Source: Candidatus Tenderia electrophaga
GTDB lineage: Bacteria > Pseudomonadota > Gammaproteobacteria > Tenderiales > Tenderiaceae
DNA length: 64,000 bases
Direction: 5' to 3'
NCBI GenBank assembly: GCA_001447805.1
Contig: CP013099.1
Coordinates: 434,001 to 498,000, forward strand
Shown: positions 3,099 to 13,902 of the stretch, piece after piece
Layout: each line of letters starts with the position of its first letter
How positions within the stretch are numbered: the first letter of the stretch is position 1
Notes under the pieces: model-generated
What the model saw: the letters and a program-made list of their open reading frames with translations, nothing else
Databases searched by the model: none
Told to the model about the DNA's origin: nothing
Made by a program: the position numbers and the translations under genes

Positions 3099-4406
3099 GT
3101 GTGGTTAAGGACGCTGAGCGCCTTGGTGCTGGCAGGGAGCATGATTGGTCATGCGTATGCCGCCGACTCACTCGCCGCGTTGGTGGCGCAGGGTCAGTAT
3201 CAGGTCGCCTATGAACAAGCCCTGGAGCGGCAGCTGGAGCTGGCGGGCGAACCTCAATTCGATTTTCTTTTTGGTCTGGCGGCGTTGGAAAGCGGGCATC
3301 CGCAGCAGGCCGTGTTCGCGCTGGAGCGGACGCTGGCGGCCGTGCCCCAGGATCACCGCGCCCGGCTGGAGTTGGCGCGCGCCTATTTCGCCCTGGGCAA
3401 TTTCGAACAAGCCCGGTCGCTGTTTAATACCGTGCTGGCCAGCGACCCGCCCGCGCAGGTGAAAGAGAACATTCAACGCTTTCTCGAGCAACTGGCCGAG
3501 CGCCGCAAACTGCGCGATCACCAACTGAACGTTAGCACCGAGCTTAAGCTGGGTTACGACAGTAATATCAGCAGCGGCACCACGCAGCAGGCAGTGGCCA
3601 CCGTGATCTTTCCAGCATTGCAGCTGAGCGAGACCAGCCGCGAGTTGGGCGATGAATTCGCCGAGGTGAATGCCGGCATCAGCTATCTCAAATTGCTGCG
3701 CAAGGACATGGGCTACTTCGTCTCCGCCTCACTCAACGAGCGCCAGAACAGTCATTACAATCTCTTCAACACGCGCCTGATGGGGCTCAGCGGCGGATTT
3801 GTCTATCAGGCCAAAGGCCATAGCCTGCGCCTGCCGCTGCAGTATCAATACCTGCAATATCACGACGCTAACGGCGATCATTCTCGCACCAGTGCCGGCC
3901 TGGGGGTGGAATGGAGTCTGGGCGACCGCAGCACCCGCTATGTACTGTTCAGCCAGTGGGCCCAGCAGCGTTATAGTGCCGGCCAGGAGTCCCGCGACGT
4001 GGATCTGGCCCTCGCCGGCGTCGCCGTTTCCACTGACATCGCCATGCTCAAGACCGGCCTGAGCGCTAGCGCCTATTACGCCGATGAATCCCCCCAGACC
4101 ACGGGCAGCGAATACTTCGGCCGCGCCTATGGCGGCGTGCGTCTGGTGGCCACCTGGCGTCCCCATAGCGCCCACAACTTTGAGCTCGCCCTCAGCGCCC
4201 AGCAGGTGGAGCACGACGCCGTCCAACCCTTGTTCGGCAAGCTGCGCGAGGATGACTATCGCCAGGCCGCCTTGGCATGGCACTGGCGTTTTGATCCCCG
4301 CTGGCGTTTTAGCATGGGGCTGAGTCACACCCGCAACGACTCCAACCTACCCATCTATACCTACCAGCGCGCGCAGCAGTACCTCAGCTTGCGCTTTGAT
4401 TACTGA
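3099..4406 (+). CDS. TPR plus outer-membrane barrel protein, Slam/type XI secretion-like
   Basis: 435 residues starting at GTG with AGGTGGA 8 nt upstream. Visible parts: a signal peptide ending at AYA-ADS (about residue 22), TPR-like helical repeats at about 25-140 (SGHPQQAVFALERTL, ARAYFALGNFEQARSLF), then a strand-rich domain at about 145-435 opening with LKLGYDSNISSG and closing with SNLPIYTYQRAQQYLSLRFDY. This order, the GYDSN opening and the SN-P-Y-Y-R ending match surface lipoprotein assembly modifiers (SlipAM/DUF560), outer-membrane translocators of the Slam or type XI system. Known members sit beside their cargo genes, and here two giant exported proteins follow, the first starting 16 bp after the stop. 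Family assignment is by eye; export of the neighbours is inference. Confidence 0.72.
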   Translation: MWLRTLSALVLAGSMIGHAYAADSLAALVAQGQYQVAYEQALERQLELAGEPQFDFLFGLAALESGHPQQAVFALERTLAAVPQDHRARLELARAYFALGNFEQARSLFNTVLASDPPAQVKENIQRFLEQLAERRKLRDHQLNVSTELKLGYDSNISSGTTQQAVATVIFPALQLSETSRELGDEFAEVNAGISYLKLLRKDMGYFVSASLNERQNSHYNLFNTRLMGLSGGFVYQAKGHSLRLPLQYQYLQYHDANGDHSRTSAGLGVEWSLGDRSTRYVLFSQWAQQRYSAGQESRDVDLALAGVAVSTDIAMLKTGLSASAYYADESPQTTGSEYFGRAYGGVRLVATWRPHSAHNFELALSAQQVEHDAVQPLFGKLREDDYRQAALAWHWRFDPRWRFSMGLSHTRNDSNLPIYTYQRAQQYLSLRFDY

Positions 4407-4422
4407 CAGGGACGCTGACCGC

Positions 4423-7400
4423 ATGCAGCGAAATCTGAAACCGGGACTGGCGCTGATACTGGTGTTGGCCTCGTTTCAGCTATCGGCGGTGGAGCCGGCC
4501 GGTTTTGTGTTGATGGCCACGGGGACGGTCGAAGCCGTGCAGACCAATCAGCAGACGCGGCCGCTCAAACGGCGCTCGCCCTTCTTCCCCGGTGAATCCC
4601 TGAGAACCGGTCCCGAGGCCAAGGCCCAGGTACGCTTTCGCGATGGCTCGCTGATCACCCTGCGGGCGCAGACCGAAATTCGCCTCGACGAATTCCGTTT
4701 CGACGAACCGTTCAAAGGCGAGGACAAGAACATTTTCACCCTGGTCAGCGGCGGCTTTCGCACCATTACCGGCAAGATCGGCAAGCAGAAGCCGGACAAC
4801 TATCAAATGAAGAGCTCGGTGGCCAGCATCGGTGTACGCGGCACCACCTATGAAGTGGTGCTGGCGCAAGGTCTAAACGTGGCCGCCTGGCAAGGCTCCA
4901 TCGTGGTGGAAAACCAAGGCGGGCGCATGACCCTGGGAGCGGAGGGACGCTACAACTTTGCCGTGGTGAGTTCTCCCCGCAGTGCGCCGCGCGGCAGCAT
5001 GAAACCGCCGCCCGCCATCGCCAACGAACAACGGCAAGCAATCCAAGAGAGCGAGGACGACGCCGCTCAGGAAGAAGGCGCCGCGCCGGAAGAACCCAGT
5101 GAGAGCGAGGACAGCGCCGCGGACGATCAGAGCGAGGACAGCGAAGGTACGCTGGCCGAGCAGATCAGCAATGACGCCGATGACCCCGCCGACGCGCCCC
5201 CTGTGGTGACGGTCAGTGATGTAGATCCGGCGCCCGAGGCGTTAGAAGCGGAGCCGCTTCCCAGCCCGATCCCCGATCCCATCCTCACGCCGGTGCCGGA
5301 GCCGACACCCACGCCTGACCCCGATGTCGATCAGCGCCTCCTCGACGTCACTCTCGACCGGGTCGGCATGGCCGTGGTGGAGGGCACGGGTTATTCCCAA
5401 ATGCTGGCCGGCGGTCAGGCCGGGCAGGACGGCAACGCCGCCTATCACATCGCCGACAACGGCCTGGACCCTGCCGAGACCGGTTTCGCCACCACACCGT
5501 TTATACAAGTGCTGACCCAGGGCCAGGCGCCGCTGGGCAACAACATGAGTGTCAACATCGACGCCAATCACAGCGTCACTTACGGTGTGTGGGAGGCCAG
5601 CGCGGGGGCGCCGGCGCAGTTACGCACCGATGCCGCCGACGCCGCGGTATTCACCGCCATCGACCAGCCTATCTATTGGGTGGTAACCGATTTGAGCGCC
5701 GACACCGTGGTTGCCGGCCGTAGCGGCCAGATTGATTACCGTCACGTGAGCGGCTTTCTCGGCGGCGGCAGCGGCGGTGCGGTGAATGATGTCTATATGA
5801 ATCTGAGCGTCAATTTCGACACCCTTGCGGCGAGCGGCGAAGTGAATATCTATACCGCCAGTGAGCTGTGGCAGCTCAGCCTGAGCGGCAGCCTGAGCCA
5901 GCCGACGCTGGATTTCACCACGCTCACGGGTGATGTCAACGGCAGCGCCGTGCAGGGCGAGTTCAACAGCCTGTTCAGTGGCGCCAACGCCCAGGCCCTG
6001 GCCAGCAGTTTTGATCTGGAGAAGGTGGGCGATCCCAACACCTACGTCTCGGGCGTGGCGGTGGTGGACGATAGCGCGGTGGGGGATCTGCGCCTCAGTC
6101 CGGCCGAACAGACCAGTCTGGACCGGGTTGGCATTGCGCTGCAGGTCAACGGTCAAGCCGGTGCCCATTGGTTCATCGGCCCGTCCACGGCAGGCGCCTT
6201 GAATGACGGCCCCTTGATGACGCACAACGGGGTGTCCCCCGGCGATCCCGCCTTTGCCAGTGCGCCACTCGCGCAGGTGCTGCGGGACGACATCGCTTAC
6301 CTGAGTTCCTCCTATGAGGCCTCCACTGTGCCGGTGAGTTGGGGCACCTGGCAAACCGATGTGCAGGTCCAGCTCTCCGCCTTCGATCCCAATGACAGCG
6401 TGACCCTGACTGAGCCGGTGCGCTGGATGAGCGTGTTGCCCAGCACCAGCGGCGTACTGGCGGGCAAGAGCGGTGTGGCGCGTTTCGCCCCGATTTATGC
6501 CGAAGCGGTGGATCACAATGCCAATGCCTTTCTCAAATTCTTCCTCGGCCTGGAGGTGGACTTCGACCTGGCCCAGTTCCATGGCTCCGGCGTCTACGAG
6601 ACCCCCGCCAACGATGCCTGGCACTTCTTTTTCGACGGCAACATTACTGGACCGGAGCTGGGGTATACGACGCTAAATGGGGTGCGTCGCGACAGCCTGG
6701 GCAACGAGCTGGCCATCGACGGCGCGTTGAGCATGCTATTCACCGGCAGCGCGGCCGAGGCCATCGCCGGGGCCTATGAGTTCGAACTCAGCAGCGACAG
6801 CACTCAATACATCACGGGCAATTTTCTACTGGGCCAGGATCTGCGTCTCAGCAGCACCGAGGTGGGCAGCCTGGACCGCTACGGTGTGGCCATGACGTCG
6901 AGCGGCGCCGTCGGGGCGGACTGGTTCGTCGGTCCGGCCTCGAACGGTAACCTGGGCGATCCCCTTATCGCCGAGAATTTCGCCCACGCCGGCGATCCCC
7001 ACTTTCACGACTTGCCGTTGGCCGAGATCCTCAAACGCGGCGCCACCACCACCCAGATCGTGCAAAGCGATACCAATTTTCCGGTGAGCTGGGGCATTTG
7101 GAACAGCGGCGCCGAGTTGCACACCGATCCCGCCAACCCGGGCCTGGTCAGCACCCTGGCCGAGCCGGTGGTGTGGATGACGGTGCTGCCGAGCGCGGAG
7201 TCGGTGGTATTGGGGCGTACTGGGCGCGGCTTTTATTTCGCACGCCAGTGCTGCGCCGGCTTCGGCCAGACCGACACCGGCTACGGCATCGATACCCTGT
7301 CTTTCGATCTGGGGCTGGATTTTGATAGCGGGCAATTTAAGGCGCGCTTGTATGTCTACGAGCCCGACACGGATTTCTGGAATGTACTGTTGGGCGGCCA

Positions 7401-8400
7401 CCTGCTCGGCACCGAGCTGCAGGTCGACAGTCTGGATGCGGTGAATTCGTATTACGCCAATTATTCAGACGCTCTGGGCAATACAGCCGTGGACGGCGAG
7501 TTCAGTCTGGTGTTCACCGGTGCCGGCGCCGAGGCCCTGGCGGTGGCCTATGAGCTCGAGTCCGCCGCCGACAGCAGCTACTACCTTCAGGGCGCCTTCG
7601 TTGCCGGGCAGGATGTGCGCCTCGCTCCCGGCGAGCTGAATGCGATGCAGCAGGTCGGCGTATTGGCGGGTTGGAGCAATGGTTTCGGCATGGCGACCAC
7701 GGCGCCCATGTCGCCGGTGTTCGCCCACGACGGCATGGGCAGTTATCACCCCGGCGATGCCTGGTTCGAGCTGGCCTCGCTGCAAACCGTATATCGTCAG
7801 GGCGGCGCTGCGGAGGACATGTTGGGGGGGCACGCGGTGGCGGGCGACCCGGCTTTCCAGGTCAACTGGGGCCGCTGGAATGCGGCGGCAGGTACGCCGG
7901 CCACCTATCAGGGCGATCCGGCCGATGCCGCCAGCCAGGGCGATATCACCACGCCGCTGTACTGGCTGACCCTGGCGCCCACGCCGCTGGATACCCTGGC
8001 CGCCAAGACCGGCCAGCTCAGCTACAACGCCCCGGTGAGTGTGATCGGCGCTGGGGTGGACGGGGACGTCAATCCCGCCAGCGTCTCTTTTGCCGCCACG
8101 GTCGATTTCGACACCGGCGCCTTGAACAGCGGCAGCATGCATGTGGAGCATTTGGGCGGCCAGAGCTGGGATATGAATTTCAACGCCGCGCCCGGTTCCA
8201 TGACCCCCTCGGGCGCCTTTCAATATGTCTCCGCAAGCGGTCTCTACGATGGTGCCACCAGCGCCAACGGCAGCATGGATCTTATTCTCACCGGCGCCGC
8301 CGCCGACGGCCTGGCGGGGCGCTTCAATTTTAACGCCAATCCGGGTGTCGCCAAGGATATGAACGGGGTCTTTCTGGTGTGCCAGAGCGGGGGCTGTTAA
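4423..8400 (+). CDS. giant exported FecR-domain protein with four C-terminal repeat modules
   Basis: 1325 residues. Layout: signal peptide (about 1-25, cleavage near SAVE, with no lipobox cysteine); FecR-type beta domain (about 30-185, with GESLRTGPEAKAQVRFRDGS and SSVASIGVRGTTYEV); acidic/proline linker (about 190-305); then four homologous modules starting near residues 312, 566, 816 and 1074. Each module runs D-R-V/Y-G, then V-SWG-W, then P-V/I-YW or VVWM, then VDFD and W-L-F-G, and closes with LFTGSAAEAIAG-like sequence. The closing motif resembles the C-terminal barrels of TbpB-like Slam cargo. The protein ends in a cysteine pair, CQSGGC. I start at ATG 4423, after the upstream gene's stop, with AGGGA about 10 nt before. 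Likely cargo of the upstream translocator (inference). Confidence 0.8.
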   Translation: MQRNLKPGLALILVLASFQLSAVEPAGFVLMATGTVEAVQTNQQTRPLKRRSPFFPGESLRTGPEAKAQVRFRDGSLITLRAQTEIRLDEFRFDEPFKGEDKNIFTLVSGGFRTITGKIGKQKPDNYQMKSSVASIGVRGTTYEVVLAQGLNVAAWQGSIVVENQGGRMTLGAEGRYNFAVVSSPRSAPRGSMKPPPAIANEQRQAIQESEDDAAQEEGAAPEEPSESEDSAADDQSEDSEGTLAEQISNDADDPADAPPVVTVSDVDPAPEALEAEPLPSPIPDPILTPVPEPTPTPDPDVDQRLLDVTLDRVGMAVVEGTGYSQMLAGGQAGQDGNAAYHIADNGLDPAETGFATTPFIQVLTQGQAPLGNNMSVNIDANHSVTYGVWEASAGAPAQLRTDAADAAVFTAIDQPIYWVVTDLSADTVVAGRSGQIDYRHVSGFLGGGSGGAVNDVYMNLSVNFDTLAASGEVNIYTASELWQLSLSGSLSQPTLDFTTLTGDVNGSAVQGEFNSLFSGANAQALASSFDLEKVGDPNTYVSGVAVVDDSAVGDLRLSPAEQTSLDRVGIALQVNGQAGAHWFIGPSTAGALNDGPLMTHNGVSPGDPAFASAPLAQVLRDDIAYLSSSYEASTVPVSWGTWQTDVQVQLSAFDPNDSVTLTEPVRWMSVLPSTSGVLAGKSGVARFAPIYAEAVDHNANAFLKFFLGLEVDFDLAQFHGSGVYETPANDAWHFFFDGNITGPELGYTTLNGVRRDSLGNELAIDGALSMLFTGSAAEAIAGAYEFELSSDSTQYITGNFLLGQDLRLSSTEVGSLDRYGVAMTSSGAVGADWFVGPASNGNLGDPLIAENFAHAGDPHFHDLPLAEILKRGATTTQIVQSDTNFPVSWGIWNSGAELHTDPANPGLVSTLAEPVVWMTVLPSAESVVLGRTGRGFYFARQCCAGFGQTDTGYGIDTLSFDLGLDFDSGQFKARLYVYEPDTDFWNVLLGGHLLGTELQVDSLDAVNSYYANYSDALGNTAVDGEFSLVFTGAGAEALAVAYELESAADSSYYLQGAFVAGQDVRLAPGELNAMQQVGVLAGWSNGFGMATTAPMSPVFAHDGMGSYHPGDAWFELASLQTVYRQGGAAEDMLGGHAVAGDPAFQVNWGRWNAAAGTPATYQGDPADAASQGDITTPLYWLTLAPTPLDTLAAKTGQLSYNAPVSVIGAGVDGDVNPASVSFAATVDFDTGALNSGSMHVEHLGGQSWDMNFNAAPGSMTPSGAFQYVSASGLYDGATSANGSMDLILTGAAADGLAGRFNFNANPGVAKDMNGVFLVCQSGGC

Positions 8401-8447
8401 TCGGCGCTAAGCCCTTGTTCTAACAGCGCCTGTGCGCCTGGCCCAGC

Positions 8448-8463
8448 TGTGATCGGCGTCACA
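8448..8463. promoter_or_regulatory. CRP (cAMP receptor protein) type operator
   Basis: TGTGA-N6-TCACA with both five-base half-sites perfect and the canonical six-base spacer. It lies 100 bp before the second FecR-domain gene, in the 147-bp gap between the two paralogues, roughly 60-70 bp before a plausible start site, which would suit class I activation. The class III adenylate cyclase encoded at 11674-13902 makes cAMP control plausible. CRP itself is not in the window. Confidence 0.65.
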
Positions 8464-8505
8464 GTTTCGGCCCTGAGGGTGCGTTCGTCTCAAGTATATG
8501 TCGAT

Positions 8506-8520
8506 AACCTAATATAGGTT
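8506..8520. promoter_or_regulatory. perfect 6-bp inverted repeat overlapping a probable -10
   Basis: AACCTA-ATA-TAGGTT, a 15-bp palindrome containing the -10-like hexamer TAATAT at 8510-8515, just upstream of AGGAGG and the ATG at 8548. It could be a repressor operator overlapping the promoter, or simply the AT-rich core promoter. No regulator family is assigned. Confidence 0.35.
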
Positions 8521-8547
8521 CCTCGAGCCGTATAGGAGGCGCGCACT

Positions 8548-11500
8548 ATGAACGATCTATCCCACCTGTTGCGGGGCATCATCATCGCCCTGTTGTTGAT
8601 GGCTCCGGCCTGGTTGCTGGCCGCAGAGCCGGCAGGCTATGTGTTGATGGCCACGGGTGAGGTGGTAGCGGTGCAGCCCGATAGTGAAGTGCGGACGCTG
8701 ACGCGCAGGTCGCCGTTCTACTCCGGCGAGTCGCTTAAGACGGGTGCCGATGCCAAGGCCCAGGTGCGTTTTCGCGACGGCGCGTTGATCTCCTTGCGCC
8801 CGGATACCGAGATCCGCATCGATGATTTCCGCTATCAGGAAAGCGACGGCGGTGAGGACAAAAACATTTTCACCCTGATCAATGGCGGCTTTCGCACCAT
8901 TACCGGCAAGATCGGTAAGAAGAATCCCAAGAATTATCAAATGAAGAGTTCGGTGGCCAGTATCGGCGTGCGCGGTACGAACTATGAAGTGGTGCTGGAC
9001 AAGGGCCTGAATGTGGCCACCTGGCAGGGCACCATTGTGGTGGAGAACGCGGCCGGGGCCATTACACTGGGCGCGCAAGGGGTGTTCAATTTCGCCCATG
9101 TGGCCGGGCGGACTGCGAAGCCGCTGGGGCTCATGACACCGCCGCCGGTGATCGGGGAGAACCCCGAGCTGTCCACTGGCCAGGGTCCGGATGAAGGTGA
9201 TACGGACCTCGAGAATGAGGAATCTGAGCCGCTCGCTAACGCCCCAGCCCCCGATGACGGCGAGCCTGTTCCGAATAGTCTGAGCCATTCAGATCCCGCT
9301 GAGCCGGCGCCGACACCGATCAGCCTGGAACAAGGCAGCTTCATTCCGGAGCCGGTGATCGATACCGGCGACCAACGCCTGCAGGGCGTGAGCCTCAGCC
9401 GTGTCGGCATTGTGCAAAAGGTGGATGCCGTCAGCGGTTTCGACTACCTGGTGGCGCCCTCGGGCGAAGATGCCAACAGCGCGCCGGTATTCGCCGATGT
9501 CGGCTTGTCGCCCGACGATCCGAATTTCTATAGCGCCGCCGCCAGCGAGGTACTGCGCCAGGGCAGCGCACCCTTGGTGGCGAGTTACGACGCCCCCGCC
9601 CTGGGCGTGAGCTGGGGCATCTGGGACGGCAATGCCCAGCCCGCCGAACTGGCCACCGACGCCAGCGATGCCAGCATCGCCACACCGATCAGTCAGCCGG
9701 TGCACTGGCTGACCGTGACCGCCAGCGACGCCACCACGGTCAGTGCCAAGACCGGCCGGTTCAGTTTCCGCAATGTGCTGGCCTTCGACGGGGTCGGCAG
9801 CGACGGTAGCGTCACCGGCCTGTATGTGGATCTGGGGGTGGATTTCGACAGCGCCAGCGTGGCCGGTGACATGCATGTCCATACCGCCAACGAGCTTTGG
9901 GATGTGGACTTGAGCGGCACCGTGAGCGCGCAGGGTTTAAGCATCAACAGCGTCAGCGGCTCGGTCAACGGCACACAGAGTGTCACCGGTGTCGCCGAGT
10001 TGATGTTTGTCGGCAGCGCGGCCGAGGCCCTGGCGGGCATGGCCTCGTTTGAGGCGGTGGGCAATGCGGCGGTCTACCTCGACAGCATGTTCCTGGTCAA
10101 AAACGATGTGCGTCTCGGCGGTCTGGTGCTGGAGCGGGCCGGCATCGTGCTGGAGTCCAACGCCCTATCTGGCGTGCATTACAGCGGCGGCCTGGCGGCC
10201 GTTGGCACGCCGGTGTTCGCCGACAACGGCCTGTTGCCCGGCGACGCCTTGTTCGATGTGGCGGCCATTACCGATGTGATCAGTCAGGGCGGGGCAACGC
10301 TCATCTCCAGCTACGATGATCCCAACTATGCCATCAGCTGGGGCATTTGGAGCGGCGCGACGCTGCAGACCGATCCTAATGACGCCACAGTGACGAGTAA
10401 TCTCAGCGATCCCGTGGTGTGGATGAGTGTGTTGCCCAGCGATGATGTGGTGCTCGCCAGTCGCAGCGGCGGCGCGTATTACCACAGCGCCCCCGTCTCG
10501 CCGGCGACCCAGGGCATCAGCAACGGCGGGCTCGGCATCACCAGCCTCAATGCCGACTTGAAAGTGGATTTCGACATGGCGCAGTTCAAGGGCGCCTTGT
10601 CCCTGATGACCAATCCTTCAGACAGCTGGGATCTGAGCTTTGACGGCAACCTGGTCGGTGCGCGCCTGGAGGTGACCGCCATGAGCGGCACGTACAGCGG
10701 CGCCGGCGGCAGCGGCGCGGCCAGCGGCAATCTTTTCATGGTGCTCAGCGGCAGCACCGATCCGAACGCCATCGCCGGCGCCTTCGACCTGGAATATGCG
10801 GCCGATCCCAATTATTACGTACAGGGAAATTTCATCGCCGCGCGGGATTTACGCCTGGGTTTTAATGAGGCGCCGCTGGACCGTGTGGTGCTGGGGGCGC
10901 TCGGCAGTTCGGGGTCCAATGCCACCCTCATCGGTCGCGCCAGCGGCGGCACCAGCCCGGTGATCGGTCTGAGCAATTATTATTTTGATCCCGCCCAGCC
11001 GGCGTTTTGGTTGGAAGAGGCCAGTGACATTATCAAGCAGGGCGGCACGCCTGATCTGGTGGCAGCCCAGACCACTACCAGTTATCAGGTCGGCAGTCCC
11101 GATCCGGCCTACGAGGTGAGCTGGGGGGCCTGGAACGGCCAGGCGACGGCGCTGAACAAACAGACCGACCCGCTCGATCCCACTGTCAGCACGGCGGTGA
11201 ATTCGGATCTGTTCTGGATCACTTTCATGCCGACGGCCATTGATGGCGGTACCGGGACCCCGGGTGGCAAGACCGGCCAGGTAGTGTACGACCAGACCGC
11301 GACCAACTGGGTGGCGGGCAGCACCAGTACCGGCGCGATTAATAACAGCTCGTTTTATTTTTCCGCCAATGTGGATTTCGATACCGGCAACGTGACCTCA
11401 GGCACCATGGGCTTTTCCGACGCGTCCAATACCAACTATTGGAATGCCTCCTTCACGGGCACCCTGAACGGCGCCGAGTTGCAGATCAGTTCGCCGCTGG

Positions 11501-11670
11501 TGTACTACAATTCGGATACCGTCAATCCCGCCGCGGCTGAGATGAAGGGCATGCTCACCGGCCCTCAGGCCGAGGGTATCGCCGGCAGTTTCGATTTTGA
11601 CTATATGGCCGGCACGGCCACCGCCGAGGGCGTGTTCCTGAGCAACTGCGCCGGCAATACCGGCTGCTAG
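8548..11670 (+). CDS. exported FecR-domain protein with three repeat modules (paralogue of 4423-8400)
   Basis: 1040 residues with AGGAGG 8 nt before the ATG. Same layout as its neighbour: signal peptide (cleavage near LLAAE, no lipobox), FecR domain with GESLKTGADAKAQVRFRDG and SSVASIGVRGTNYEV, a Glu/Pro-rich linker, then three ~250-residue modules starting near residues 283, 529 and 777, one fewer than the paralogue. The last module closes with MLTGPQAEGIAGSFDF, close to the TbpB-family barrel motif, and the protein ends in a cysteine pair, CAGNTGC. It arose by gene duplication with gain or loss of a module. Its own CRP-like site and promoter precede it. It ends 3 bp from the stop of the convergent cyclase gene. 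Function unknown; a surface or secreted role is inferred. Confidence 0.8.
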   Translation: MNDLSHLLRGIIIALLLMAPAWLLAAEPAGYVLMATGEVVAVQPDSEVRTLTRRSPFYSGESLKTGADAKAQVRFRDGALISLRPDTEIRIDDFRYQESDGGEDKNIFTLINGGFRTITGKIGKKNPKNYQMKSSVASIGVRGTNYEVVLDKGLNVATWQGTIVVENAAGAITLGAQGVFNFAHVAGRTAKPLGLMTPPPVIGENPELSTGQGPDEGDTDLENEESEPLANAPAPDDGEPVPNSLSHSDPAEPAPTPISLEQGSFIPEPVIDTGDQRLQGVSLSRVGIVQKVDAVSGFDYLVAPSGEDANSAPVFADVGLSPDDPNFYSAAASEVLRQGSAPLVASYDAPALGVSWGIWDGNAQPAELATDASDASIATPISQPVHWLTVTASDATTVSAKTGRFSFRNVLAFDGVGSDGSVTGLYVDLGVDFDSASVAGDMHVHTANELWDVDLSGTVSAQGLSINSVSGSVNGTQSVTGVAELMFVGSAAEALAGMASFEAVGNAAVYLDSMFLVKNDVRLGGLVLERAGIVLESNALSGVHYSGGLAAVGTPVFADNGLLPGDALFDVAAITDVISQGGATLISSYDDPNYAISWGIWSGATLQTDPNDATVTSNLSDPVVWMSVLPSDDVVLASRSGGAYYHSAPVSPATQGISNGGLGITSLNADLKVDFDMAQFKGALSLMTNPSDSWDLSFDGNLVGARLEVTAMSGTYSGAGGSGAASGNLFMVLSGSTDPNAIAGAFDLEYAADPNYYVQGNFIAARDLRLGFNEAPLDRVVLGALGSSGSNATLIGRASGGTSPVIGLSNYYFDPAQPAFWLEEASDIIKQGGTPDLVAAQTTTSYQVGSPDPAYEVSWGAWNGQATALNKQTDPLDPTVSTAVNSDLFWITFMPTAIDGGTGTPGGKTGQVVYDQTATNWVAGSTSTGAINNSSFYFSANVDFDTGNVTSGTMGFSDASNTNYWNASFTGTLNGAELQISSPLVYYNSDTVNPAAAEMKGMLTGPQAEGIAGSFDFDYMAGTATAEGVFLSNCAGNTGC

Positions 11671-11673
11671 TGA

Positions 11674-13902
11674 TTATTTTTCGCGCCGCTCATACACCCC
11701 GTCCCATTGCGGGCCGGGGGGGCGTTGTCTGAGTTCGGCGATGCGCTCCAGATAGAGTGGATAGAGGCGGCTCGCGGGCTGCTGCAGCAGCAGTCGGCGC
11801 AACAGCGCCTCGGCTTGATCCCAGTCCTGGGCGTAATACGCTGTCAGCGCCGCCTCGTGCTGTGTCAGCGTGTGCAGTAGGGCGGGTGTCGCCGCATCCC
11901 GGCTGCACAGCGGTTCGAAGACCGCCACCGCAGTGGTCTTGCCCTTCACCTTGACGCGATCGAGCTGACGAAACAGAAACGCGTCCTGTCCCGCCTTGGT
12001 GAATTCGCTGACCACCAGGCCGACGCCGTAGAACTTGGTCAGCCCCTCGATGCGTGAACCCAGATTGACGTTGTCGCCCAGCACCGTATAGGCGCGGCGG
12101 TAGCTCGATCCCATGTCGCCCACATTCATCAGGCCGCTGTTAAGGCCGATGCCGATATTGATTTCCGGATAGCCTTCCGCCGCCAGAATGGGCTTGAGCT
12201 CGGCGGTTTTTTCCAGCATTTGCAGGGCCGCGCGCAGGGCGTGTTTGGCATGCTCCGGGTCGCTCAGGGGGGCGCCCCAGAAGGCCATGATCATGTCGCC
12301 CACGTATTTGTCGATGGTGCCCTGGTGCTCGAAGATGATCTCGGTCATGTGGGTGAAGTAGCGGTTGAGCAGGCTGCGCAGGGCCTCCGGCGAGAGTTGT
12401 TCCGACAGGCCGGTAAAACCGCGGATGTCGGCGAACAGCACGGTCATCTCGCGGCTCTCGCCTTCGAAGCCGAAGCTCTCCGAGGTCTGCGACATGGCGT
12501 CCACTAACTGGGGCGGCACATACTGGCCGAACATGTTTTTCAGCTGCACCCGCTTGCGCGTTTCGTACAGTAAACCGTAGCTGATGTTGACCGCCGCTAG
12601 GGTCAGGATCAACAACAGTGGCCAGGCCACCGCCAAGGCCAGGCCCTGAGCCTGCCACAGCCAGAAGTTGCCGTAAGCCACTCCCGCCGCGGTCAGCAGG
12701 CTGGTGATGAGCAGCGGCAAGGGGGCGAGACGGGGCAGCAGCAGCGCCAGCAGCAGGCCGATGGCCAGGGTGGCCATGAGATTGGCGCCGTCGGCCCAGG
12801 CGGGCTCGTAGGGAAAATCGTTGTCGAGGATGCTGCGCACCATGTTGGCGTGCACCTCCACGCCGGGGTAGATGTTCTCCACTGGCGTGGCCACCAGGTC
12901 GGAGATGCCGACCGCAGTGGCGCCCACCAGCACGATGGTGCCCGCCAAACGGGCCGGGTCATAGTCGCCGTGCAGGATGTCGGTGGCCGAGATGTAGGGG
13001 AACTGCCCCGCCGGGCCGCGGTAGGGCACCAGGGCGAAGCCCAGGCCGTCGGTGGGAATGGTGGTGCCGCCCAGAATGATCTTTTCCACTGCATCGATGT
13101 TGCCGATGGGGGCGGTCTTGATCTCCACCTGTTCCAGGAACAGATAGAGCTTGGCCAGATTCAGCGACAAGGAGCCGTACACCTGGGTGCCGTGGCGGAT
13201 CAGCATGGGGGTGCGGCGGATGATGCCGTCCGGGTCCGGCCAGGTGGTGACAAAGCCGCTGGAATAGGCGGCGTCTTGCAGCAGCGGCACGCTGGCGGTG
13301 TAGTTGGGCATGGCCTTGATGCCGGAGCGACGCACCTGTTCAGGCGTCAGGCTGAGCAGGGCCGGCGGCAGCTCGCCCAGCGGCGCGCTGTCTTCCTCGT
13401 GGAACAGATAGCCGAGCGTGACATCGCGCCCGTCCAGGCTTTCGGCCAGGCGGTGGTCGTTATCGAAATGGGGCAGCAGGGCCTCCAGGTTGCGTATCAG
13501 GGCCGCATTGTCCGGCTGATCCGCGGCGACCCGTGCCAGCACCGCTGCCGCCTTATTGCGCTCCGGCTCAGAAAAAATGATGTCGAAGCCCACCACCACG
13601 GCGCCGCCCGCGAACAGGCGTTCGGTGAGGGCGGCGATCTTGTCGCGCGGCCAGGGCCAACGGCCTTCGGCGGCCAGGCTCTTTTCGTCGATGTCGATAA
13701 TCACGATGCGCCGGTCCAGGGCCGGGTCTTGCGCCAGGGCGCCATTCAGCCTGAGATCATAAGCCATTGATTCAGCGCGTTGTTTTAAGGCTTTGAGGAG
13801 GGGGATATCGGCAAACTGGGCCCAGCCGAACACGATGCTGACAGCAATGCCCAAGAGCGTCGGCAGCGATTTGGCGGTGAAAGGGTTTTGGCTCATGCGC
13901 AT
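11674..13902 (-). CDS. membrane-bound CHASE2-sensor class III adenylate cyclase
   Basis: 742 residues. An N-terminal membrane helix (about 13-30) is followed by a large extracytoplasmic CHASE2 sensor (about 40-370, with IDEKSLAAEGRWPWPR and the YPGVEVHANMV segment typical of CHASE2), three clustered helices (about 372-445) and a class III cyclase domain (about 482-665). The metal aspartates are present in LFADIRGFT and KYVGDMIMAF. Substrate-selecting residues are lysine (DKYVGD, near 530) and threonine (YTVLGDNVN, near 609), the class IIIb combination specifying ATP, so it should make cAMP. The transition-state Asn/Arg (NVNLGSR) are intact. A short TPR-like tail follows. It is tail to tail with the FecR paralogue; its promoter faces the PilZ gene. 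Confidence 0.93.
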   Translation of the reverse strand: MRMSQNPFTAKSLPTLLGIAVSIVFGWAQFADIPLLKALKQRAESMAYDLRLNGALAQDPALDRRIVIIDIDEKSLAAEGRWPWPRDKIAALTERLFAGGAVVVGFDIIFSEPERNKAAAVLARVAADQPDNAALIRNLEALLPHFDNDHRLAESLDGRDVTLGYLFHEEDSAPLGELPPALLSLTPEQVRRSGIKAMPNYTASVPLLQDAAYSSGFVTTWPDPDGIIRRTPMLIRHGTQVYGSLSLNLAKLYLFLEQVEIKTAPIGNIDAVEKIILGGTTIPTDGLGFALVPYRGPAGQFPYISATDILHGDYDPARLAGTIVLVGATAVGISDLVATPVENIYPGVEVHANMVRSILDNDFPYEPAWADGANLMATLAIGLLLALLLPRLAPLPLLITSLLTAAGVAYGNFWLWQAQGLALAVAWPLLLILTLAAVNISYGLLYETRKRVQLKNMFGQYVPPQLVDAMSQTSESFGFEGESREMTVLFADIRGFTGLSEQLSPEALRSLLNRYFTHMTEIIFEHQGTIDKYVGDMIMAFWGAPLSDPEHAKHALRAALQMLEKTAELKPILAAEGYPEINIGIGLNSGLMNVGDMGSSYRRAYTVLGDNVNLGSRIEGLTKFYGVGLVVSEFTKAGQDAFLFRQLDRVKVKGKTTAVAVFEPLCSRDAATPALLHTLTQHEAALTAYYAQDWDQAEALLRRLLLQQPASRLYPLYLERIAELRQRPPGPQWDGVYERREK

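Follow-up and report, generated by a model that had tools for sequence, protein, structure and literature searches.

The Slam proteins and their type XI relatives, grouped as SlipAM, DUF560 or PF04575, are outer-membrane translocators encoded beside their cargo. Slam and HrpB transport TbpBBD cargo, lipidated or soluble, and the C-terminal barrel has been proposed as the targeting part of such cargo (PMC8406197, PMC12282271). Both TbpB and hemophilin have been established as cargo of Slam/type XI systems (PMC8406197, PMC9090332), HrpC and hemophilin are established soluble cargo (PMC8406197), and Skp serves as a holdase for Slam1 (PMC9090332). As of 2021, nine of the ten type XI translocator sequence clusters had no characterised member (PMC8406197), and for cluster 3 the co-occurrence with a known barrel domain is rare (PMC12282271).

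We describe here a locus in the window, by which we mean the whole 64,000-nucleotide stretch analysed, from Candidatus Tenderia electrophaga. Three genes on the forward strand, called T, A and B, form its core. T (3099-4406; GTG start) encodes a 435 amino acid candidate translocator of the SlipAM/type XI superfamily. A (4423-8400; ATG start; 1325 amino acids) begins 16 nucleotides past the stop of T; an alternative TTG start at 4396 would give 1334 amino acids. B (8548-11670; 1040 amino acids) has an AGGAGG ribosome site upstream and is a paralog of A, with which it aligns over almost the whole length at 38% identity. An earlier note on this DNA had described a 1325-residue exported protein 16 bp after T followed by a 1040-residue paralog, and the coordinates agree with that description. 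Three nucleotides beyond B, convergent with it on the reverse strand, lies a gene for a CHASE2-adenylate/guanylate cyclase (11674-13902; PF05226 and PF00211). Promoter and terminator scans gave no clear excess over shuffled sequences.

Two further genes in the window encode small predicted outer-membrane proteins, one on the forward strand (616-1332; DUF6588-like, under the cut-off) and one on the reverse strand (1346-2026; OMP_b-brl-like, under the cut-off). Both are kept beside T in most relatives from the genus or family (L028, L029, L031, L032); in L030 only the homolog of the first is found there. In L029, which is from the same genus, the FecR cargo (8810-12942) is spread over three open frames of 271, 801 and 265 amino acids, reflecting either decay or an assembly error.

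T begins with presumably periplasmic TPR helices (residues 34-140; 3198-3518; TPR_19, E 3e-13), followed by a predicted β-barrel (residues 141-434; 3519-4400). The GYDSN opening and the SNLPIYTYQR ending that the earlier note had read in a TPR-plus-barrel protein are both present, at residues 152-156 and close to the C-terminus, respectively. The AF2 model (pLDDT 95.6) has the TPR helices and exactly 14 strands. The closest solved structures to the barrel are CymA and OmpG (Z 20-23), which are 14-stranded barrels; no Slam structure is among the PDB matches of T.

The SlipAM likeness proposed for 3099-4406 is missed when T is searched by itself, but it holds for the family. PF04575 finds no match in T alone at E 1 (cut-off 22 bits) and none across the whole source genome; TPR_Slam stays below its cut-off, and the second half of T has no Pfam match over cut-off. 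A search for relatives yielded 14 full-length homologs outside the source genome. Among the 86 members of the T family, 41 match PF04575 and 30 match TPR_Slam, and the relatives at loci L018, L007 and L019 pass the curated PF04575 cut-off. When the 86 T sequences are compared by hhalign with a set of six SlipAM proteins, most of them high-scoring Slams, the probability is 100 and the E-value 6.2e-44 over 401 columns, from the TPR part through the last strand, at 17% identity. Searched against 274 genomes of the class, a profile built from 15 T sequences retrieves unquestioned Slams (as judged by PF04575) at nearly full length, for example the Slam G260:C3 (PF04575, 228 bits) with an E-value of 9e-25 over profile columns 21-436. 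The low identity and the PF04575 miss by T itself both count against reading T as a translocator; since members of its family match PF04575 and the profile-profile comparison finds the Slams, we set the miss aside. By homology and by its modelled fold, T is a predicted divergent SlipAM/type XI outer-membrane translocator.

Might T instead be an exopolysaccharide export porin, or some other TPR-barrel channel, with A and B as unrelated surface proteins merely travelling along? T does match EpsL weakly (24 bits against a cut-off of 275), 47 of the 86 family members match BBP2_2 weakly, and BcsC, PelB and AlgE also appear among the Foldseek matches. We judge the EpsL and BBP2_2 matches to be generic barrel likeness. 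The Slam match, however, is full-length and takes in the TPR part, the 14 strands fit CymA and OmpG best, no polysaccharide genes are found among the scanned neighbors, and the linkage of T to FecR-module genes is too strong for chance companions. We regard the porin as highly improbable.

Some T homologs have what appear to be long N-terminal extensions (L109, 4167-6062; L110, 7900-9876; L118, 2512-5115); these are open frames of 631-867 amino acids, and in each case a FecR gene is still next.

The products of A and B each start with a signal peptide (4423-4488 and 8548-8622), read by eye. A pattern search found no lipobox cysteine in either, in keeping with the claim that the cargo is non-lipidated; A and B are exported, apparently non-lipidated proteins. 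A FecR domain follows (PF04773, cut-off 24 bits; A, 4600-4902, 47 bits; B, 8734-9036, 48 bits), and after a linker come repeated modules of about 250 amino acids, four in A and three in B, which are mutually 23-37% identical. The modules of A occupy 5332-6084 (residues 304-554), 6085-6837 (555-805), 6838-7611 (806-1063) and 7612-8397 (1064-1325, ending in CQSGGC), and those of B occupy 9373-10104 (276-519), 10105-10845 (520-766) and 10846-11667 (767-1040). This is the build that had been claimed, a FecR domain joined to three or four barrel-like handles. Each module contains a WG.W-like motif (YG.W in one copy), a [VL][ND]FD motif and a closing G...A motif. Every module in A and B closes with a motif like LFTGSAAEAIAG, and profile alignments place FYGPKAEEMAG of TbpB and FYGAKAEGLAG of hemophilin at the equivalent position, in keeping with the suggestion that an LFTG-AAEA-AG-like close recalls TbpB-like cargo.

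Sequence comparisons point to the same relatives. On its own, the last module of B matches PF01298 (TbpB_B_D) at 29 bits, over the cut-off of 26, while no match over the cut-off is seen in A; the model for Slam-dependent surface lipoproteins, NF041636, gives 26 and 39 bits, below its cut-off of 80. A cargo profile of FecR plus module finds TbpB (8.7e-7) and hemophilin (1.3e-6), with LbpB and NHBA found weakly, and a module-only profile finds TbpB (5e-7) and hemophilin (5.5e-6), the latter through three hemophilin entries. TbpB and hemophilin are the best solved relatives of the modules by sequence. An AF2 model of residues 1-525 of B predicts FecR, a long disordered linker, a handle and eight strands. 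Module 1 of B is the one modelled, the other six being placed by sequence alignment; it superimposes on the C-lobe of TbpB (VIA-align) with Z 14.3 over 190 residues (rmsd 3.6), on NHBA with Z 13.7 over 112 residues, and on fHbp with about Z 12-13. For this module, the comparison with TbpB C-lobe barrels proposed in the earlier note finds a match, with eight strands and a handle in the model.

A closely spaced pair of cysteines (CQSGGC, CAGNTGC) lies at the C-terminus of A (8380-8397) and B (11630-11667), and such a pair also occurs in betaproteobacterial cargo (L206, L211, L212, L222, L233).

An independent check agrees with this: when the module profile, built from FecR cargo only, is run over 17 loci, its top ranks are genes directly upstream of SlipAM genes. 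These stand beside bona fide Slams, at L159 (E 5e-5), L158 (2e-4) and, weakly, L157.

What we observe are homologies, an architecture, a gene linkage and a co-occurrence; by homology with Slam and HrpB, T would be expected to transport A and B. We consider it very likely that the locus belongs to a divergent Slam/type XI branch in which non-lipidated FecR proteins with several handles are displayed. The earlier note had proposed a translocator with non-lipidated FecR multi-barrel cargo; its account of the anatomy and of the kind of system stands, and that T carries A and B across the membrane is something we infer. A and B would reach the periplasm through Sec, unlipidated. As with known type XI cargo, T might then engage the TbpB-like barrel at the C-terminus, and the chain would pass outward through the 14-strand barrel of T. 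The four or three handle-plus-barrel modules would be displayed or released outside. The N-terminal FecR domain might stay in the periplasm as an anchor or signal partner, perhaps, at a guess, for the neighboring CHASE2 cyclase.

In a variant compatible with this scheme, T still acts as a type XI translocator, but A and B end up in the medium as soluble proteins, as hemophilin does, with the FecR domain exported too and having no anchoring role. The missing lipobox would fit such a release, which has precedents in HrpC and hemophilin (PMC8406197). However, the FecR domain sits at the N-terminus of 62 of 62 cargo proteins used (chosen for having FecR and a module), pointing to some function in the envelope, and the long disordered linker after it would suit a tether. 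We hold the soluble variant to be plausible but somewhat less probable than its opposite.

The pairing of T with FecR-module genes recurs in many free-living bacteria of the Gamma- and Betaproteobacteria. We gathered 104 non-redundant relatives of T with more than 200 bits and room downstream, selected by T rather than by FecR from an uneven sample of genomes. A FecR gene lies directly downstream on the same strand in 87 of them, with a median gap of 15 nucleotides, and near or overlapping T in five more. About 12 have no FecR gene in reach, which counts against the translocator reading. Both FecR genes of the source genome are downstream of T. Among 101 FecR proteins near T, 74 have C-terminal modules, from one to seven each; where no module was detected, much of the cargo runs into the edge of its contig or is broken across frames, and some is truly short. 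Proteins with six or seven modules (2.2-2.5 thousand residues) are found in Pseudomonadales, SAR86-labelled and other gammaproteobacterial MAGs. The longest seen here, with seven modules and 2.3-2.5 thousand residues, are those of L168, L171, L177, L183 and L188, all from gammaproteobacterial MAGs.

Are T and the modules also associated across genomes? Of 274 genomes, 37 have both, 13 have T only, 2 have a module only and 222 have neither (Fisher p-value 2.6e-32, uncorrected for relatedness of the genomes and with an analyst-set T threshold of about E 1e-50). Since 37 of the 39 module-bearing genomes also have T, the association is not due to chance. The two exceptions, G159 and G270, have module proteins without FecR and no T nearby. 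In a tree of T, made by a quick method and with long branches, FecR-linked genes cluster (9 changes against 29 when shuffled) and most of them belong to a single branch of 98 rows (88 with FecR, ten without; support 95), which is apart from the Slams and from the Rhodobacterales homologs.

Eight T genes without a FecR gene in reach (L173, L176, L179, L187, L190, L192, L172, L217) are close kin of FecR-linked T genes, and an aminotransferase-like gene follows each of them after 0.6-1.1 kb; their cargo has been lost or is encoded elsewhere. In a sister branch of T (support 100), the neighbors carry a short protein with the WG.W motif, mostly without FecR (L114, 5592-6758; L122, 7717-8052; L125, 7617-7979; L041, 7609-8397). 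It is perhaps another type of cargo.

We turn to the FecR domain and the cyclase. The modelled FecR domain of B resembles the cell-surface signalling domain of PupR (Z 15.2). A and B do not have the build of classical FecR anti-sigma regulators, in which a cytoplasmic anti-sigma domain and a membrane helix come before FecR and an ECF sigma gene is nearby: here only a signal peptide precedes FecR. No sigma-factor gene is found among the scanned neighbors of the locus. The LapA-type retention module NF033682 matches the N-terminal half of the FecR domain in 45 of the 62 cargo proteins, and A and B at 20-25 bits (cut-off 50). The N-terminal half of the FecR domain also matches 5ix9 (titled "Antifreeze protein"; E 3.8e-6), which we take to be the N-terminal region of a Marinomonas adhesin. 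Five of ten FecR proteins unlinked to T match the LapA-type model too, and the likeness was dropped as evidence for anchoring.

A homolog of the CHASE2 cyclase is found near 34 T-FecR loci. In the 3.76 Mb of the source genome there are two strong CHASE2 genes, one of them the cyclase gene next to B, so chance is a poor explanation for this recurrence. FecR-CHASE2 pairs are also known without T: a LysM-FecR protein occurs with a CHASE2 kinase (PMC5192318), and in S. meliloti the CyaD1/Clr cAMP circuit includes the FecR protein smc02177 (PMC5498481). These neighbors and the likeness to PupR would suit a trans-envelope sensor in which T serves as scaffold or receptor barrel, A and B are periplasmic, and FecR relays to a cAMP-making CHASE2 cyclase. 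Such a sensor, though, leaves unexplained both the homology of T with Slam and the one to seven C-terminal TbpB-like modules, and A and B have no inner-membrane anti-sigma part. We think it improbable as a full account of the locus. Display and signalling may nevertheless be combined, as a sensor need not exclude a translocator. It is tempting to speculate, and we rate it as rather unlikely, that the display system is also a sensor, with the modules outside and the FecR domain, periplasmic after transport, reporting to the CHASE2 adenylate cyclase. If so, secretion or the binding of a ligand outside would change cAMP inside.

Why might such cargo have been overlooked? PF01298 matches only 1 of 62 cargo stretches (FecR plus first module), and NF041636 matches 5 of 62, so surveys of Pfam co-occurrence would mostly miss the barrel; that so few single cargo proteins pass PF01298 also weighs against the translocator reading. 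FecR is not mentioned in two surveys of type XI systems (PMC12282271, PMC8406197). In a search of mainly open-access journal papers, we found no literature linking DUF560/Slam with FecR and no prior description of a FecR-fused, multi-handle class of type XI cargo. The new cargo build would join FecR to between one and seven handle-barrel units. Across the Gamma- and Betaproteobacteria, the T branch keeps a TbpB-like C-terminal barrel that Pfam mostly misses, which makes this cargo directly testable, and the repeated CHASE2 neighbor suggests that surface display may be connected with cAMP.

In comparison with known systems, T is closest to the Slam/type XI proteins (Slam1, NilB, HrpB). They share TPR helices and a 14-strand barrel in the same order, conserved D-S-N and SN..Y.Y motifs, and a gene beside TbpB-barrel cargo. 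They differ in that identity is 17%, the T of the window falls below PF04575, its cargo is fused to FecR, and the T branch is found mostly in free-living Gamma- and Betaproteobacteria with a CHASE2 cyclase as neighbor. The FecR/PupR signalling proteins share the FecR fold with A and B, which, in contrast, have no cytoplasmic anti-sigma part and carry FecR right behind the signal peptide. The LapA-type retention module of RTX adhesins resembles the N-terminal half of the same domain, with all matches in the window below cut-off. Among cargo, the surface lipoproteins TbpB, LbpB, NHBA and fHbp share the module fold (Z 12-14), and TbpB has two such lobes, but they are lipidated and lack FecR. The soluble cargo hemophilin (HphA) and HrpC resemble A and B in having a signal peptide without lipobox and a C-terminal handle plus eight-strand barrel, and hemophilin matches the modules by sequence profile (E 1e-6). 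They have a single module and no FecR, while A and B have four and three modules plus FecR, and relatives have up to seven. The multi-TbpBBD cargo of Sphingomonas and Psychrobacter (PMC12282271) likewise has several barrel domains per protein, with N-terminal proline-threonine or PTD repeats where A and B have FecR.
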